Positions 2,861-62,001 of a DNA stretch of 64,000 nucleotides are shown piece by piece (the first letter of the stretch is position 1; the number at the start of each line of letters is the position of its first letter). The notes below the pieces were generated by a model. The model searched no databases and was not told the DNA's origin. It worked only from the letters and a program-made list of their open reading frames with translations. Location: contig NZ_SKFH01000014.1 of NCBI RefSeq assembly GCF_004343705.1, positions 1 to 64,000 of the forward strand. Reading direction: 5' to 3'. Origin of the DNA: Flaviaesturariibacter aridisoli (GTDB lineage Bacteria; Bacteroidota; Bacteroidia; Chitinophagales; Chitinophagaceae). Made by a program: the position numbers and the translations under genes.

Positions 2861-4057
2861 CTAAATGAAATTCAGCGTTTCGAAGCGGCCGCCCAGCACC
2901 TCGGCGGGGCTGGTGCCGAGCCATTTTTGGAGCACCGTGGCGTAAACCTGCCGGAAATCGACGGTATGCTTGATGTCTCCCTGGTCGAGGTCGGCGAGGT
3001 TCGGCAGGGCGTTGAGGATGCCTTTCTGCTTCAGGCCGCCGCCAAAAAGAAAGAGGTTGTTGGCGCAGCCGTGGTCGGTGCCCTTGGAGGCATTTTCCCC
3101 CACGCGGCGCCCGAACTCCGAGAAGGTCACCAGCAGCACGTCGTCGAAGCGGTGGTTTTCCTTCAGGTCTTTGATAAAGGTGCCTACCGAGTCGTTCACC
3201 TCTTTCAGCGCGCGCTGGTGGTAGAGCTCCTGGTTGATGTGCGTGTCGTAACCGGCCTGCGACACATAATACACTTTCGTGTCGAGGTCGGACAGGATCA
3301 GCGAGGCGATGGTGCTAAACGCTTTGCCGAGCGGCGAGTTGGGGTAGGCGGGCGCGTTCTTGCGCTGGCCGGCCTTCTGGGCAATGTGGTCGGCGCCGGA
3401 GAGGGTGGCCGACATCGTTTTGTAAAGGTAGTCGGCGCCTTCATGGTGGTGGCCCGTATGCTGGCCGGCGGCGTCGCGGAAGAAGCGCTCGTTGGCGAGG
3501 CCGAAGAGCAGCTTCGGGTCGCGCATGGCCATGCCGTTCATCTGCGCGCCTTTGAGCGCGAGGCTGAGGGTGTCGTCGATCTCGAGGGCCTGCGTGGCGG
3601 CGGCGCAATCGTGGCACTGCGCATCCAGGTAGCGGCCCAGCCAGCCGGTATTGCGGTATTCGTTGCTCGCGGAGGCGCTTTGCCAGATATCCATGGAGCG
3701 GAAGTGCGAGCGGTCGGGATCGGGGTAGCCTACGGAGTTGAGAATGCCCAGCGACCCATCGTGGTAGGCGTCGGCGAAGGCGGTCAGCGCAGGATTGAGG
3801 CCCACGTCGTCGCGCAGGGCGAGGGTTTTTTCGCGCTGGAGGCCCAGCGTGGGGCGCGCTTTGTAATACAGGTCGTTGCGCACCGGCACCACGGTGTTGA
3901 GGCCGTCGTTGCCGCCCGTGAGCTGCAGCACCACCAGCACCTTGTTGCCCGGCGGCACGGCGCGCGGGGCTTCAAAGGCCTTCAGGAATTTCGGCACAAA
4001 GAGCGAGGCGGTGGCGAGGGCGCCGGTCTGGAGGAAGGTGCGTCGTTGGATAAGCAT
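2861..4057 (-). CDS. DUF1501 family exported protein (copy B)
   Basis: This 398-residue paralogue of the 62-1264 product has the same QRRTFLQTG twin-arginine-like N-terminus, GGNDGLNTVVPVRNDLYY, HFRSMDIWQSAS and SEFGRRVGENASKGTDHG motifs. The start at 4057 corresponds exactly to the start chosen for copy A; upstream in-frame codons fall in the duplicated spacer. It is 47 bp upstream of the copy A DUF1800 gene on the same strand, so all four genes can form one operon. The function is unassigned, but a periplasmic location is inferred from the export signal. Confidence 0.9.
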   Translation of the reverse strand: MLIQRRTFLQTGALATASLFVPKFLKAFEAPRAVPPGNKVLVVLQLTGGNDGLNTVVPVRNDLYYKARPTLGLQREKTLALRDDVGLNPALTAFADAYHDGSLGILNSVGYPDPDRSHFRSMDIWQSASASNEYRNTGWLGRYLDAQCHDCAAATQALEIDDTLSLALKGAQMNGMAMRDPKLLFGLANERFFRDAAGQHTGHHHEGADYLYKTMSATLSGADHIAQKAGQRKNAPAYPNSPLGKAFSTIASLILSDLDTKVYYVSQAGYDTHINQELYHQRALKEVNDSVGTFIKDLKENHRFDDVLLVTFSEFGRRVGENASKGTDHGCANNLFLFGGGLKQKGILNALPNLADLDQGDIKHTVDFRQVYATVLQKWLGTSPAEVLGGRFETLNFI

Positions 4058-4193
4058 GGTCGTGAGGCGTAAAGCGTGAGGCGTGAGCGGCCTCACCGTT
4101 AAGAAAAAGATTTGAACCGATCGGGCGGCGCAGGCGCACGGGTTGACGCCTCGCGCCGCACGATCTCAGCAAAGCTGGTACTCCGGCAGGCTC
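4047..4193. repeat. Duplicated inter-gene spacer, copy B
   Basis: This is the counterpart of 1254-1400. It includes the first codons of the DUF1501 gene, the GTGAGGCG words, a short A-rich stretch and the last codons of the DUF1800 gene. The near-identity between copies contrasts with the divergence of the flanking genes. Confidence 0.85.
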
Positions 4194-8275: not shown

Positions 8276-8401
8276 TTAGTCTATTGGTCGATTCGTCTAT
8301 TGGTAACTGCGACGCGGCAACGTTGCTACGTTCTATTGATTTTCCTGAAGATTTGCGCACAAACCTGCCTTACCAATAAACCAATAAACTAATAGACCAA
8401 T
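8276..8401. repeat. Word-repeat hairpin (TCTATTGGT type)
   Basis: Left arm 8276-8306 contains TCTATTGGT twice; right arm 8370-8401 contains the complementary ACCAATAAACCAATA and TAATAGACCAAT. The loop is about 63 bp. It lies between the serS stop and the cytochrome gene, where a terminator would be expected. Confidence 0.8.
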
Positions 8402-17613: not shown

Positions 17614-19911
17614 CTACCTGGCGAGGAACACGATCTTCCCCGCCGCCCGCTCGGCCTGCCCTTCTTCCGTTACCAGCACGAGGTACACGCCGCTGGCTAC
17701 GGCCACGCCGCGGTAGTCGGTGCCGTTCCAAACGGCCTGCCCCCCGAGGGAGCGCGATTGGTATACGAGCCGGCCATTGAGCTCGGTGATCTTCACGATG
17801 CTGTTTTCCTTGAGCCCGCGAAGGGCGATGGTGCCGCCGTAACCGGGCGGAACCGGGTTGGGAAATACCTGCAGCGCGCTGTAGTCTTCTTTGCCTTCGG
17901 TGGCCGTAGCACGGAACGAGCAGATGCCTTTAGCGGTGGATACGAACACTTCGCCCGAGGCGCCGTCGATGGCTACGCGGAGCACGTCGTTGCTCAGCAG
18001 CGGACTGGTTTCTTCGGTAAAATGCAGGAGCCGTTTGTCGCCGTCGGGGGAGAGGAGCCAGAGGCCGTTGCGGGTGCCCACCCACTTGCGGTCGGCACCG
18101 TCGACGGCGATGCTGCGCACTTCCTCACCCTTGAACAGGTAGTTGGCAAAGGCGTTGGTGCCGGGCACGATCGGCAGCAGGGCCTCGCAGCCGCTGAACA
18201 CGCCCGTGCCGCACTGCACGATGGCCACGCCGTCGGTAGTGCCTACCCAGATGAAGCCCTGGCGGTCTTTGGCGAGGCAGAGCGGCTCGCCGGCGGGGAG
18301 GTTGCCGTTGCCCGCGCCGGGGCGCAGCAGGCGCCACCGGTCGTCGGAGCGGTTGGCCAGGTCCTGGCCGGGATGGAAGGCCACGAGGCCGTTGCCTTTG
18401 GGCGAAAGCCCCCACACGGTGCCTTCCTCGTCCACCACCAGCTGCGCGAGCGCATTTTCATTCAGCGAAAAGGGGGGCGTGAACGACTCCCAGCTACCGT
18501 TGGGACGCCGCACGTGCAGGAAGGCCGCCGCACCGTAATTGGCTACCCAGAGGTTGCCCGCATCGTCGAAGGCGAGGCCCGCCACGCGGTAGGAGCCCGG
18601 GTCGCCGATGGTGGGGCCGATGGGTGAGTTCTGCTTGTAGATCGTGAACTGGTCGGGCCCGGTGTAGTGCACGAGGCCACCACCGTAGGAGCCGCCCCAG
18701 AAGCTTTCGTCGGAAGGATCCACGGCGACGGATATAAGGTCCAGCACGGTGTCGAGCGCCGGCAGGCGAAACTGGTTGTAGCCGGTCCAGGTACCTTCCT
18801 TGTACTGGTAGATGCCGTTGCGGTTGTACTGGTAATTCCAGGACGCGTTGACCGAGCCGGCGGCAGCATACACGACGCCGTTCCAGGCGGTCAGCTCGCC
18901 CGAGGCGGTGCCGTCGGGGCCATTGGGTTTGTAGAATTCGGGATCGCCGCCGCTCCAGGCCGAGAGGCCGGCGTAGAGGTCGGCCACCCAGAGGGTGTTG
19001 CCGGCGAGGCGCGCGTGCTGCGGGTAGGAGAGGGGCGGCGCCTGCGTAGCGGAGCGGAAGGTGCTGCCATCGGGGTTCAACACCAGGGCCTGCGTAGGGC
19101 CGCCGTTGAGGAAGCTTTGCGTGAGCGCCACCTTACCCTCGGTGGCATCGAGGTGCACGATGGGTGCGCCGTTGGCGAAGAAGAGCGACCAGGAGCTGCC
19201 GTTCTGCACCAACAGTGAGTCGTTTTGCCAGGCCACGATGCGCCCGCCGGTGCTGACCACGCCGCGGCAGGGCGCGGCGGAGAGGCCGTTGCTGCCCGAG
19301 AGGGTCGTCCAGCTGCGGAAGTCGGAGGGTGTCGGGTTGTTGACGGGGGTGCGTTTGAGGCCTTCGGCCGTGGCGGCATAGAAGAAGTCGTTGTCGCGGG
19401 CCATCATGTAGGTGGGCACATAGGCGCCGCCGGCACCGATGAACCAGGAATCCTTGGTTTCGTAGCGTGCCGCGTCGATCACCCACACGCCGAGGCCGGT
19501 AGACACATAGCAGCTGTTGCCGAAGGGCAGGAAGTGGTAGATCGTTTTATCGCCCGACACCGGCTCGCGCTGCAGGTCGGGGATGTTGCGGATACCGTTG
19601 TTGGTGAGTACGTCGATGTTGGAATTGCTGTAGCCGATATAAAGCTTTTCGCCCGCGTCGTCGTAGGCGATGGTGCTGATGCCGGTCTCGCTGAGGCCGC
19701 TCACCTTGCTGAGGCGCCCCGGCTCGCCGCTCGTGCGGTCGACGGTGAAGAGGCTGTAGGGCGTGGCGGTATAAATACGGTCGGGCGTCACCGCCAGGTC
19801 GAGGGCGCTGTTGTAGGGCAGGTGCTCGCGCCAGCCGCCGATGGCGGGGAAGCTGTTTTGCGCAGATGCGCCGAAGGAACAGAGCAGGAGGGGGAAGGCC
19901 AGAAATCTCAC
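17614..19911 (-). CDS. porZ: Type IX secretion system protein PorZ
   Basis: This 765-residue protein starts at GTG 19911 with VRFLAFPLLLCSFGASAQ as signal peptide. The mature N-terminus has WREHLPYNSALDLA and YTATPYSLFTVDR, then GLSETGISTIAYD, the typical opening of the PorZ beta-propellers. Two propeller domains occupy about residues 30-680. The C-terminus (VFPNPVPPGYGG to KIVFLAR) is a T9SS type A sorting domain. PorZ is part of the surface attachment complex that processes T9SS cargo and joins it to A-LPS. A longer in-frame reading of 95 residues upstream is translation of the GAGAACGA repeat and is not real. The TACCTTCA box four bases upstream supports this start. Confidence 0.87.
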   Translation of the reverse strand: MRFLAFPLLLCSFGASAQNSFPAIGGWREHLPYNSALDLAVTPDRIYTATPYSLFTVDRTSGEPGRLSKVSGLSETGISTIAYDDAGEKLYIGYSNSNIDVLTNNGIRNIPDLQREPVSGDKTIYHFLPFGNSCYVSTGLGVWVIDAARYETKDSWFIGAGGAYVPTYMMARDNDFFYAATAEGLKRTPVNNPTPSDFRSWTTLSGSNGLSAAPCRGVVSTGGRIVAWQNDSLLVQNGSSWSLFFANGAPIVHLDATEGKVALTQSFLNGGPTQALVLNPDGSTFRSATQAPPLSYPQHARLAGNTLWVADLYAGLSAWSGGDPEFYKPNGPDGTASGELTAWNGVVYAAAGSVNASWNYQYNRNGIYQYKEGTWTGYNQFRLPALDTVLDLISVAVDPSDESFWGGSYGGGLVHYTGPDQFTIYKQNSPIGPTIGDPGSYRVAGLAFDDAGNLWVANYGAAAFLHVRRPNGSWESFTPPFSLNENALAQLVVDEEGTVWGLSPKGNGLVAFHPGQDLANRSDDRWRLLRPGAGNGNLPAGEPLCLAKDRQGFIWVGTTDGVAIVQCGTGVFSGCEALLPIVPGTNAFANYLFKGEEVRSIAVDGADRKWVGTRNGLWLLSPDGDKRLLHFTEETSPLLSNDVLRVAIDGASGEVFVSTAKGICSFRATATEGKEDYSALQVFPNPVPPGYGGTIALRGLKENSIVKITELNGRLVYQSRSLGGQAVWNGTDYRGVAVASGVYLVLVTEEGQAERAAGKIVFLAR

Positions 19912-19915
19912 CTGG

Positions 19916-19923
19916 TGAAGGTA
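19916..19923 (-). promoter_or_regulatory. Promoter -7 box for porZ
   Basis: TACCTTCA on the minus strand, four bases from the GTG start. It lies next to the left arm of the large GAGAACGA inverted repeat. Confidence 0.5.
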
Positions 19924-19925
19924 CG

Positions 19926-20038
19926 GAGAGCGAGAACAAGAGAACGAGAGGAAGAGAGAACGAGAGAACGAGAGAACGAGAGAACAAGAGAACGAGAGAA
20001 CGAGAGAACAAGAGAACGAGAGAACAAGAGAACGAGAT
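19926..20038. repeat. Left arm of the GAGAACGA inverted repeat
   Basis: Tandem repeats of 7-8 bp alternate between GAGAACGA and GAGAACAA. The arm ends GAACGAGAT on the side facing the four-helix-bundle gene. It is complementary over about 90 bases to 20525-20620, including the rarer internal variant GAGGAAGAGAGAAC. Confidence 0.95.
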
Positions 20039-20129
20039 AGAGAGGGGTTGGGAAAAAAGCAGGCGGGGGTGGGAAAAACAACAGGGTTGTCTGGGGGAAG
20101 CGGTGGAGCTTCGGGTAAATGGAAAACGC

Positions 20130-20495
20130 GTGAACAACCGGCAGCAGAAAAGAATCTATTACCAGAAGCTCGAAGAGCGGCTAATTGAATTTGCATCCAA
20201 TATCATTGGTATTGCGGAACGCCTGCCGCGCCATGTGGCGGGGCGCTATTATGCCGATCAGGTGAGCCGAAGCGGAAGCTCGCCGGCGCTCCACTACGGG
20301 GAGGCGCAAAGCGCGGAAAGCCCGGCCGATTTTGCCCACAAGATGAAGGTTGGGTTAAAGGAACTGCGGGAAACCTTTGTCGCCCTGCGCATCATCCGCC
20401 TGCGCCGCTGGCTAAGCGAAGAAGAGCTTCAGCCCATGCTCCAGGAAAACAACGAGCTCATCTCCATCTTCGTAACCTGCATCTTTCCGCGCTAA
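20130..20495 (+). CDS. Four-helix-bundle protein (S23/IVP type)
   Basis: This 121-residue helical protein is of the family related to the proteins encoded in 23S rRNA intervening sequences. Recognisable features are KLEERLIEFASNIIGIAERLP, the SRSGSSPALHYGEAQSAES turn, DFAHKMKVGLKELRET and a last helix NNELISIFVTCIF. The GTG at 20130 gives VNNRQQKRIYY; another GTG at 20103 is possible. It is enclosed by the GAGAACGA inverted repeat, so it sits in the loop of a very large potential hairpin. The biochemical function of free-standing members is unknown; related small bundles bind nucleic acid (for example Avd of retroelements). Confidence 0.85.
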   Translation: MNNRQQKRIYYQKLEERLIEFASNIIGIAERLPRHVAGRYYADQVSRSGSSPALHYGEAQSAESPADFAHKMKVGLKELRETFVALRIIRLRRWLSEEELQPMLQENNELISIFVTCIFPR

Positions 20496-20524
20496 CCCGC
20501 CTCTATCTCCACCCTCGTCCCTCA

Positions 20525-20620
20525 TCTCGTTCTCTCGTTCTCTCGTTCTCTTGTTCTCTCGTTCTCTCGTTCTCTTGTTCTCTCGTTCTCTTGTTCTCTC
20601 TTCCTCTCGTTCTCTCTTCC
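20525..20620. repeat. Right arm of the GAGAACGA inverted repeat
   Basis: This is the complement of the left arm: tandem CTCGTTCT and CTTGTTCT words that begin ATCTCGTTC next to the gene. The two arms enclose about 490 bp that hold only the four-helix-bundle gene. Confidence 0.95.
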
Positions 20621-20699: not shown

Positions 20700-21386
20700 C
20701 TAAGGGGTGCTCGGCTCGCTGCGTTCCCGCGATGCGTAGCGGGTAGGATCGAGGAGGGTATGATCGAAGAAGCGCCGGACGGCATTCGGGTTGCGCTTGT
20801 ATTTGCGGGCTACCTGCAGCAGGGCCTCGTAGAGCGCGTCTTCCAGCTCCACCCGGCCTTCGTCGCGCTCATCGCGCTCGGCTTCCAGGTCGCCGCCCGT
20901 TTTTTTCTGACCCGTCCGCAGGCGCTCCCATTCGTCGTGGAAGCCGAGGAGGGTGCGCCGCGTAGGCTCGTGGAGGCGGTCGCCGGTGCCTTCGATGGTT
21001 TTCTTCACCGTCAGCAACTGCGCCGGGGCGTCGGTCTTGGTGAGTTGCGAATAGGTGCGGCGGCCATTGGGATAGAGGGCGGCAAACTCCTTCGAATCCT
21101 CGCCGAGGTCTACCGCGATGCGGGCCTGGGCGGTGCGCATCGTAACGGCTACGCCTTTCAGGAACGTATCCAGCGTGGAGGTGTCGGTCGTGCGCCCGGC
21201 GTGCAGTTGCTGCACGGAGCTGCGCTTTTGGGTTACGTGGCGCACGGCGGCGTCGATCGCGGCCGCTTCATCGGGGAATTCGGCTTCCAGTTTCGGTACG
21301 GCATCGGTGCCGAAATCGCAAAGGTGGGGTGTGCTCATCTCGATGTCATCGAAGGGATTGTCGGCGACGCGGTAGATCTTTTTCAT
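20700..21386 (-). CDS. Hypothetical helical protein
   Basis: This 228-residue protein starts MKKIYRVADNPFDDIEM. I do not recognise a domain. It lacks a signal peptide and membrane segments and is rich in charged residues, especially in the C-terminal third (GGDLEAERDERDEGRVELEDA), so it is probably a soluble, largely helical cytoplasmic protein. Codon use and composition match the surrounding core genes, so it is a real gene despite the lack of a family name. It is single, with its own terminator at 20635 and followed upstream by the 43-bp tandem array. Confidence 0.7.
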   Translation of the reverse strand: MKKIYRVADNPFDDIEMSTPHLCDFGTDAVPKLEAEFPDEAAAIDAAVRHVTQKRSSVQQLHAGRTTDTSTLDTFLKGVAVTMRTAQARIAVDLGEDSKEFAALYPNGRRTYSQLTKTDAPAQLLTVKKTIEGTGDRLHEPTRRTLLGFHDEWERLRTGQKKTGGDLEAERDERDEGRVELEDALYEALLQVARKYKRNPNAVRRFFDHTLLDPTRYASRERSEPSTP

Positions 21387-21436: not shown

Positions 21437-21660
21437 CGTAGGATGCCGCCCGGCGTTTTCCGGGTGCCCTCCTACGGTGCGTAGGAGGCCCTTCGGAGAT
21501 TTCCGGGTACCGGGCTACGGTGCGTAGGATGCCGTTCGGAATTTTCCGGGTACCGGGCTACGGTGCGTAGGATACCCCTCGGAAATTTCCGGGTGCCGCG
21601 CTACGGTGCGTAGGATGTCGTCCGGAGTTTACCGGGTAGGATCCTACGGTGCGTAGCGCG
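21437..21660. repeat. Five tandem 43-bp self-complementary repeats
   Basis: Units begin at 21437, 21480, 21523, 21566 and 21609, followed by nine bases of a sixth. Each runs CGTAGG...CTACGGTG with a central CGGA-TTTCCGGG, so the ends pair (CGTAG/CTACG, up to CGTAGGAT/ATCCTACG in unit 5). There are no spacers between units, which excludes a CRISPR array. The array is upstream of the minus-strand hypothetical gene. Confidence 0.95.
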
Positions 21661-21799: not shown

Positions 21800-22240
21800 G
21801 CTGGAAGCCCCCGGGATAAAGCGGCGGTCCTACAGACCGCGCAATGGCTTCACGCCTGCCGTGCCCCGGACTGAAGTCCGAGGCAAAAAAGAGACGCCGC
21901 TATGCGGCGCGAAATGCCCCTTGTCTTCGGGTATGCCATCCTGTTGTTGTACAAAGCGTCCTCATTCCATTTCTTCACCGCGGTTGGTCGACTCCTTTAC
22001 GGGGCCGGCTAACGAATCGCCGCGTAGCGGCGTCCTGTGTCAGCCTGGGACTTTAGTCCCAGGTTGTGGGTGCCCGTGAGCCCCCGTGCCGCGTAGCAGC
22101 CTGCCCCGCAGAAGGCGGGGGAATCGTCTTTTTCGCCTCGGGCTTCAGCCCGAGGGAGGCAAGGGGCAGGCTGCAAATGTGCCGCGTAGCGGCACCACCT
22201 TATCCCGGGGCCTTCAGGCCCCGGCTCCAGCGCGGGTTCC
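21800..22240. repeat. Cluster of short palindromes
   Basis: At least eight compact palindromes follow one another: GCGGTC-ctaca-GACCGC, CGGACTGAAGTCCG, CGCCGC-tat-GCGGCG, CGCCGC-gta-GCGGCG, CCTGGGACTTTAGTCCCAGG, GTGCCGC-gta-GCGGCAC, CCTCGGGCTTCAGCCCGAGG and CCGGGGCCTTCAGGCCCCGG. Stem sequences vary but the centre is usually CTNNAG or GTAG/TAT. Similar palindromes lie inside the element at 9770-10100. No credible gene is present; ORFs here are by-products of the palindromes. Confidence 0.85.
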
Positions 22241-40002: not shown

Positions 40003-40079
40003 CGTGAGGCGTGAGGCGTCAGCCGTGAGCCGCCTCCGACGTTGGGAAATTGCACACGCTTCACGCCTCACGCCTCACG
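40003..40079. repeat. Word-repeat hairpin (GTGAGGC type)
   Basis: Left arm 40003-40032 (CGTGAGGCGTGAGGCGT, then AGCCGTGAGC) pairs with right arm 40056-40079 (ACGCTTCACGCCTCACGCC). The loop is 23 bp. It occupies the middle of the alaS/M23 divergent spacer. Confidence 0.9.
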
Positions 40080-41065: not shown

Positions 41066-41070
41066 GTTCG

Positions 41071-41179
41071 TGAATCGGCAATCGGGAATCGGCAATGTAC
41101 AATGCGTGATCAAAGGAACGGATGCCAGCCGCATCCGTTCCTTGTTCTGGGCGTCAGCATTCCCGATTCCCGATTCCCG
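41071..41179. repeat. Word-repeat hairpin (GGAATCGGCAAT type) enclosing a terminator
   Basis: Left arm 41071-41097 (GAATCGGCAATCGGGAATC and further) pairs with right arm 41158-41179 (CATTCCCGATTCCCGATTCC). Inside lies the compact terminator 41113-41147. The word differs from every other hairpin in the window. Confidence 0.88.
41113..41147 (+). terminator. Terminator of the M23 peptidase gene
   Basis: GGAACGGATGC-cagcc-GCATCCGTTCC is an 11-bp perfect stem followed by TTGTTCT. Confidence 0.8.
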
Positions 41180-54138: not shown

Positions 54139-54183
54139 CGCTCACGCCTCACGCCTCACGGCTCACGGCTCACGCCTCACGCT
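54139..54183. repeat. Single arm of GTGAGGC-type words
   Basis: CTCACGC, CTCACGG and related words repeat six times in tandem. No complementary arm was found close by; the stop codons of two convergent genes border it. Confidence 0.85.
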
Positions 54184-61900: not shown

Positions 61901-61902
61901 CG

Positions 61903-62001
61903 TGAGCCGTCAGCCGTGAGCCGTGAGTAAGGCCCCGCAGCACAGCTGCGGGGCCTTTTTCGTGGCGGTTTTGGCTCACGCCTGACGCCTGACGCCTCAG
62001 G
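61903..62001. repeat. Word-repeat hairpin (GTGAGCC type) enclosing a terminator
   Basis: Left arm 61903-61928 (GTGAGCCGTCAGCCGTGAGC) pairs with right arm 61973-62001 (GGCTCACGCCTGACGCCTGA). The carB terminator lies inside the loop. Confidence 0.88.
61929..61960 (+). terminator. carB terminator
   Basis: AAGGCCCCGCAG-caca-CTGCGGGGCCTT (with a short loop) is followed by TTTCG. Confidence 0.93.

Follow-up and report, generated by a model that had tools for sequence, protein, structure and literature searches.

The S23/IVP-family four-helix-bundle gene described here, which lies between two protein genes of Flaviaesturariibacter aridisoli and is enclosed by long inverted arrays of a tandem 8-nt word, is best explained as a whole as a selfish mobile element of the intervening sequence (IVS) type located outside rRNA, in which inverted word arrays are combined with an S23/IVP-type gene. 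This explanation, together with a mechanism in which the bundle protein would act as a ring, is considered probable. Inverted arms are the rule for PF05635/TIGR02436 genes, and the words of these arms co-vary with the bundle protein. Moreover, the unit formed by arms and gene is established, by comparison of sequences, to occur at new sites, gene and arms being absent together.

The Locus in the Window

The locus is on contig C14 of the 4.37-Mb genome, which its relatives and its T9SS gene place in Bacteroidota, and lies in the window, i.e., the whole stretch of 64,000 nt that was analysed. Its features are as follows:

19926..20620 (+), whole proposed element; outer ends approximate, placed from the porZ side and the next-gene side against the allele of the sister genome G010 that lacks gene and arms
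19932..20038 (+), left (5') arm; 13.2 tandem copies of GAGAACGA, with GAACGAGAT as the gene-facing end
20039..20129 (+), leader from arm to ORF; contains a G-rich direct repeat (20044-20085)
20103..20495 (+), four-helix-bundle (S23/IVP) gene; start at GTG 20103 or GTG 20130, stop 20493-20495; PF05635 and TIGR02436 above cut-off
20524..20616 (-), right (3') arm; 11.5 copies of TCTCGTTC, complementary to the left arm

A preliminary description of this DNA had claimed inverted word arrays around a single S23/IVP-family gene, with matching arm ends that face the cargo, and these claims hold. A tandem-repeat search places the left array at 19932-20037, with period 8 and 88% matches to GAGAACGA, and the right array, inverted relative to it, at 20525-20616 (TCTCGTTC x11.5). 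The best inverted repeat (19946-20038/20524-20616) is 93 nt long and 94% complementary, with a spacing of 485 nt, and the 5' flank, aligned with the reverse-complemented 3' flank, scores 157. On the cargo side, the left arm has GAACGAGAT at 20030-20038, the complement of which opens the right arm at 20524. The predicted RNA fold of the element reaches -349 kcal/mol, versus -235 (sd 9) in 20 shuffles (z -13). The gene matches both PF05635 (23S_rRNA_IVP; E 7.3e-11, 42.7 bits, cut-off 33.8) and TIGR02436 (E 2.7e-16, 59.7 bits, cut-off 24), and it is the sole recognisable gene between the arms, where no other Pfam match and no transposase domain was found. No target-site duplication is visible at the window copy, and the window gives no rRNA match in Rfam at the gathering threshold.

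The neighbours are the T9SS gene porZ (17614-19920, minus strand) and a gene of no assigned name (20700-21386, minus strand). The bundle gene is antisense to both and, thus, either needs its own promoter or is silent in this copy. Beside the locus, at 21437-21656, a 43/86-bp unit is repeated in tandem (4.7 and 2.6 copies); its sequence is unrelated to that of the word arrays. An Acido-Lenti-1 RNA match above the Rfam gathering score (43.3 bits) is found at 22018-22063 on the minus strand.

Inverted Arms in the Gene Family

The 400-nt 5' flank of each bundle gene was aligned locally with the reverse complement of its 3' flank, and arms were counted as present at a score of at least 30. A first set used 154 of 160 genes and 22 of 30 ParE loci, the rest being dropped for short flanks, and an enlarged set used 184 of 190 genes; the sample constitutes part of the matches listed in the genomes and, for plasmid records, 10 of 14 and 14 of 44, two or more of them identical. 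In the first set, the threshold was reached by 119 of the 154 bundle genes, as compared with 1/22 ParE toxin genes, 3/558 random window positions, and 2/344 random positions in relatives, and the inverted score exceeded the direct one in 137 genes and was lower in 17.

In the enlarged set, inverted word arms are present at 143 of 184 family genes (125/164 in Bacteroidota, 16/18 in Cyanobacteria, 1/1 in Azospirillum, and 1/1 in Gemmatirosa) and fall below the threshold in 41. When neighbouring ORFs of the same loci were taken as cargo, arms were found at 12/335 (Fisher odds ratio 94, p 6e-74). These counts are not independent events, since some copies are orthologues at one site (e.g., L336/L338 and L198/L334). 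All ten bundle genes found in this genome have arms, with scores from 36 to 157, and shuffled flanks reach at most 27. The survey thus bears out the idea that hairpin and bundle gene form one unit, most relatives of the gene carrying the arms.

The best word period is 7 in 107 of the 143 genes, 8 in 31, and another value in 5. Words of 7-8 bp had been described for the window locus; 8 bp is correct in this window, and 7 bp is the commoner length in the family. The aligned arms have a median length of 33 nt; their median word number, taken over the 138 of 143 genes whose period is 7 or 8, is 4.4. The 3' arm begins a median of 9 nt past the stop codon (119 genes). A phage search with one cyanobacterial query returned no match among 50,697 records; in IMG/VR, the same query found one contig, the arms of which score 40, and the window protein found no match.

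Covariation of Words and Proteins

Each of the ten paralogues in this genome has its own word, including GAGAACGA, ACATGANT, GGTTCTTAA, GGTGAAT, GGCAATC, and ATTTCAG, among others. Across the 143 of 184 genes with arms, similar proteins have similar words, with a Mantel rho of 0.237 for 5-mers (maximum of 300 permutations, 0.044) and of 0.207-0.254 across 4- to 6-mers; for protein pairs below 50% identity, rho is 0.104 (permutation maximum 0.053). The word of the closest protein ranks in the top 3.5% (median). GAACAAG/ATCGAA words are carried by close homologues of the window protein, and the 8-nt window word looks like a lengthened form of them. Word type is constant among orthologues in sister genomes (L077, L106, and L150; judged by reading). 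A search of a subset of the loci found no bundle gene with the TAACTGA word.

The leaders between 5' arm and ORF have GGGAAAAACA/CCATGG-like stretches in common, at window positions 20039-20129 and in L073, L080, L082, L151, and L328 of this and sister genomes. As these leaders are alike although the arm words differ, the leader backbone may be older than the arm word.

Empty Sites and Mobility

The preliminary description supposed that the unit might be mobile and proposed a search for empty sites in sister strains, and such sites were found. In the sister genome G010, the porZ of which is 75% identical, only ~180 bp separate porZ from the same next gene (57-63% identical), and neither gene nor arms are present; at the other porZ loci sampled (30 loci, of very different length and quality), no relative of the window bundle gene stands beside porZ. 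In Nostoc sp. ATCC 53789, two plasmids share one operon at 91-99% identity, in which one gap is occupied in pNsp_a by a bundle element of AGTCAGA words and the next gap in pNsp_c by a different element, of GGGAAAA words; each plasmid provides, reciprocally and at nucleotide resolution, the empty site of the other's element. Further empty alleles are L349, L350, and L351. An element at a trb site of Trichormus and Scytonema, 423 bp in Trichormus, is absent from Aulosira plasmid 3, where the empty AAAAAGTAATTAACAAA corresponds to the filled AAAAAGTAAT-element-GTAATTAACAAA, a clean 5-bp target duplication. At the pNsp_a site, TTCTA stands on both sides with one neighbouring base missing, so that the junctions compared comprise one clean target duplication, one nearly clean one, and three ragged ones. 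The empty alleles at the Trichormus/Aulosira and Nostoc sites contain no array. In addition, five records (H59-H63; 97.4-97.6% identity) cover 85% of the trb element query in two pieces, consistent with further empty alleles.

Near-identical loci differ by whole words (Nostoc C052 versus N. edaphicum, and Trichormus versus Scytonema). The related AGTCAGA elements (L336/L338, L340, and L342) are located at different operons, their proteins being 77-85% identical with dN/dS of 0.08-0.11. Over 39 family pairs, the median dN/dS is 0.21, with 38 pairs below 0.5, and the bundle protein is under purifying selection. Low dN/dS in related elements at different operons indicates that the protein stays functional while the unit changes place.

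Dispersed Arrays and Gene-Less Hairpins

Double words of GAGAACGA, with one mismatch allowed, occur 86 times in this genome, 8 times in G010, 9 times in G016, and 0-1 times in the other 26 of 29 genomes, whereas the backwards control gives 0 in this genome and 0-2 elsewhere; none of the subset of G010 and G016 bundle genes examined has exactly the GAGAACGA word. Triple words of ACATGANT number 17 in this genome and 26 in G010 (counts that include the arms of the bundle elements themselves), with 0 in the other 27 of 29, and both carriers have a bundle gene with this word (L080/L327 and L328/L378). In G016, the word of one bundle gene (L306) is a mixed ACTTGA/ACATGA, and exact ACATGANT triple arrays are absent. 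Arrays of GTTCACNN are present in 5 genomes and absent from the other 24; a bundle gene with this word was seen in G003 and G009 only, the bundle genes of G006, G014, and G015 being partly sampled. Very long GTTCACNN arrays are found in the one-contig genome G015 (L387, 1332-1819, 61 word matches; L388, 1286-1525, 30). Dispersed words thus accompany a matching bundle gene clearly for ACATGANT and incompletely for GAGAACGA and GTTCACNN.

In sampled DNA, same-genome matches average 3.47 versus 0.54 per 10 kb elsewhere (Wilcoxon p 0.003), yet the signs split 45:45 of 92, and the two top rows (L222 and L328) are probably inflated by nested or neighbouring hairpins; the claim of dispersal therefore rests on the whole-genome counts. 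Within the window, near matches exist for the arms of 6/10 own genes versus 43/109 genes from elsewhere (p 0.023).

Of 74 orphan arrays of three words scored in the sampled loci, 24 pair into 12 gene-less hairpins, the loops of which span 16 to 125 nt; as read from the table, 12/12 have the inward arm order of bundle elements. The other 50 are single. Close counterparts of the inner edges of G010 hairpins (ATGAGGG ... CCTCTAAAATCATG) stand next to the bundle gene of L378 (CCCCTCTGAAATCATG), and the gene-less G010 hairpins look as internal deletions of bundle elements would leave them. Some G010 hairpins are nested in, or adjacent to, one another. Hairpins of one word in L367, L371, and L114 seemingly hold in their loops a hairpin of another word (GATCTCGG type), read as nested insertion. 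Polarity of orphan arrays relative to the nearest gene, obtained with a crude ORF caller, was as expected in 10/12 for GAGAACGA, 20/32 for ACATGANT, and 8/14 for GTTCACNN; given this mixed result and the many arrays inside spurious ORFs, it was dropped as evidence, and only paired-arm order is used.

Two gene-less hairpins of the window have words of the type carried by bundle genes of this genome (judged by reading):

41068..41179 (no strand), GGCAATC/ATTCCCG hairpin lacking a gene; words of the type found at bundle gene L076
58839..58900 (no strand), ATTTCAG/GATTCCG hairpin lacking a gene; words of the type found at bundle gene L078

With these two included, the orphan arrays at 8372, 11472, 41068, 45025, and 58839 match, on reading, the words of L077, L075, L076, L075, and L078 of this genome, respectively. 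The suggestion that orphan hairpins of the window are gene-less versions of the unit is supported by these five arrays, the common words, and the inward order. It does not extend to the GAGAACGA orphans scored in this genome, which are single arrays and not hairpins, to the majority of single arrays, or to hairpins of the GCGTGAG word, which is absent (judged by reading) from all ten bundle genes that this genome yielded. GCGTGAG-type hairpins and arrays are located at 40003-40079, 61901-61997, 54141-54182, 1268-1294, and 4061-4087 of the window. A similar word, CGCTTCA, occurs in the G015 bundle gene L224. Near-identical stretches of ~70 bp surround the GCGTGAG arrays at 1240-1320 and 4030-4120, 2.8 kb apart, as a local duplication.

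Proposed Mechanism and Alternative Explanations

With a profile built from 33 family members, two solved structures are matched at E <=0.01, namely, 2GSC (Xcc0516) and 2RLD, each entry having five chains, and the bundle protein would, by analogy with both, form a five-subunit ring. From the covariation of word and protein and the dispersal of words where a matching bundle gene was seen, the protein is likely to read its own word. Net charge averages +0.9 over the bundle proteins and is -2 for the window fragment; the mean, being near zero, lends no support to nucleic-acid binding. The ring would recognise its own tandem words in folded DNA or RNA and deliver the hairpin to a host or trans-acting nuclease or polymerase, which would insert it at a staggered cut and so leave the ~5-bp duplication; slippage would afterwards add or remove words. 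On transcription, the two arms would be expected to pair into a long stem of the RNase III type, like that known from 23S IVSs. Neither a catalytic domain nor a partner enzyme of the element was found.

Movement might instead take place through RNA, the transcript hairpin being copied into a new site by a trans reverse transcriptase with the bundle protein acting in an Avd-like manner, a possibility that we regard as somewhat unlikely. Where neighbours are in tandem, the bundle gene is co-directional with them 97 to 21 in Bacteroidota (binomial p 7e-13) and 14 to 2 in Cyanobacteria (binomial p 0.004), according to crude gene calls at 162 Bacteroidota loci (the other 44 having mixed neighbours) and 17 cyanobacterial ones. 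This bias fits insertion through RNA or selection for being transcribed, and the window copy is antisense. Some family members reside inside rRNA, and PF05635 is homologous to Avd (PMC10053308). However, no RVT_1 match was found in 19 of 29 genomes, among them this one (G000, 95.7% complete, 10 bundle genes found), G007 (at least 18 bundle genes), and G009 (at least 17).

It appears improbable that the gene is domesticated and non-mobile and that its arms serve a fixed regulatory role, whether as terminators, as RNase III sites, or as binding sites for autoregulation. The closeness of the 3' arm to the stop codon and the constancy of word type among sister-genome orthologues would suit such a role, but the whole unit is missing from otherwise colinear loci, related elements are found at different operons, and the same words recur in scattered arrays and gene-less hairpins.

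A third alternative takes pre-existing intergenic short tandem repeats as recombination platforms, with the bundle gene as a passenger swapped by homologous recombination. In its favour, words of several bundle genes also form free arrays in the same genome, and array length shifts by whole words between near-identical loci; nevertheless, inverted arrangement dominates over direct (137 to 17 of 154), and the array-free empty sites contradict recombination between pre-existing arrays, making this explanation quite doubtful.

Equally doubtful is mobilisation of the hairpins in trans by a Y1 transposase of the IS200/RAYT type, on the model of REP elements, since, although Y1_Tnp matches occur in 22/29 genomes (7 in this one, none within the element) and the hairpin ends and gene-less derivatives resemble REPINs, no match was found in 7/29, including G020 (98% complete, at least 6 bundle genes), and target duplications are not expected from Y1 transposition. 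Presence and absence over the 29 genomes support neither a reverse transcriptase nor a Y1 transposase as an obligate partner and, thus, no enzyme is named.

A broader reading, on which our judgement is evenly balanced, joins these observations to the IVS-type element outside rRNA. A minimal mobile element of ~0.4-0.6 kb would be moved by a ring protein without catalytic activity, each subunit of which would read one copy of a private 7-8-nt word; lineages would evolve new words, which would spread as arrays and gene-less hairpins and give rise to the heptamer repeats of Cyanobacteria and Bacteroidota, and 23S IVSs and the IVP genes in CRISPR-cas operons would be insertions of the same class. 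If true, this would unite three puzzles in a single testable idea, namely, the origin of 23S rRNA IVSs, the role of the abundant S23/IVP four-helix-bundle proteins, and the presence in unrelated bacteria of intergenic heptamer arrays whose means of spread is not evident (PMC4679880). A large natural set of protein-word pairs would also become available, from which to learn the way in which a repeated word in nucleic acid could be read by a small bundle protein.

Relation to rRNA Intervening Sequences and Other Known Systems

In the open-access literature searched, no paper joining bundle genes to inverted heptamer arrays was recognised. 23S IVSs, heptamer arrays, and STRR hairpins are already known, and the unit described here has the IVS design outside rRNA, with words that differ between elements.

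The likeness to 23S IVSs, first put forward as an analogy, proves closer than that. L201, on Azospirillum lipoferum plasmid AZO_p2, is a 23S rRNA gene spanned by an LSU_rRNA_bacteria match and is the sole carrier of 23S signature strings among 392 loci; its bundle ORF lies between TTCAGAGGACGGATGACAGAGGACGGAGGACAG and the inverted counterpart. L201 is, thus, a true 23S rRNA IVS with the same heptamer-arm plan and protein family. Comparison across bacteria points to gene and arrays as one widespread tiny mobile unit, of which the inserts long known from ribosomal RNA genes would be a special case. The Coxiella IVS was described as a 428-nt selfish element in which tandem GACAGAT heptamers precede the S23p ORF, its function and origin being left open there (Warrier et al. 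2016, PMC4990558). In CPR bacteria, IVP ORFs are scattered over several 16S and 23S sites (PMC11270868). IVP genes are also reported from cas loci (PMC3936711), and plasmid bundle genes occur here in the cas6/cas4 gap (L195 and L197) and the cas10/cmr3-family gap (L345, flank score 29, just under the threshold); they are read as insertions.

The window element has in common with the 23S IVSs of Coxiella, Leptospira, and L201 the protein family and the enclosing inverted repeats, an S23p/IVP ORF lying inside terminal inverted repeats. Size is alike (428 nt in Coxiella versus 423 bp for the trb element), as are the heptamer words in L201 and Coxiella (PMC4990558). However, the window element is located between porZ and another protein gene with no rRNA, whereas L201 is inside 23S rRNA; hence, the window element is built like an IVS without being a 23S IVS. 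It also differs in its long array of an 8-nt word and in that its words form free arrays in the genome.

Heptamer arrays without evident mechanism of transmission have been described in Cyanobacteria, Bacteroidetes, and Beggiatoaceae (PMC4679880). In Cyanobacteria, STRR hairpins lie between genes (PMC2670836), and Xanthomonas has 70 and 75 inverted pairs of GGGAATC repeats (PMC4692102), the bundle protein Xcc0516 being likewise encoded in X. campestris. Cyanobacterial STRRs, the TAACTGA arrays of Beggiatoaceae/Bacteroidetes, and the Xanthomonas GGGAATC repeats are likewise intergenic tandem words, mostly of 7 nt and sometimes in hairpins or inverted pairs. Unlike these arrays, for which the descriptions cited give no linked gene or mechanism, the arms studied here enclose a bundle gene. 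STRRs are heptamers; the window word has period 8, and period 7 prevails in its family.

REP/REPIN systems with RAYT resemble the window element in having one protein gene within inverted repeats and scattered gene-less hairpins, but the element has no transposase domain, no Y1 gene lies within it, and tandem words replace the REP palindromes. Avd of diversity-generating retroelements is a homologous four-helix bundle (PMC10053308), but this genome has no RVT_1 match. An insertion sequence or transposon differs in its transposase gene, which the window element lacks. Like MITEs, the gene-less forms are short, carry inverted ends, and seem to descend from a longer element that encodes a gene, but their arms consist of variable tandem arrays, and they have no known transposase parent.
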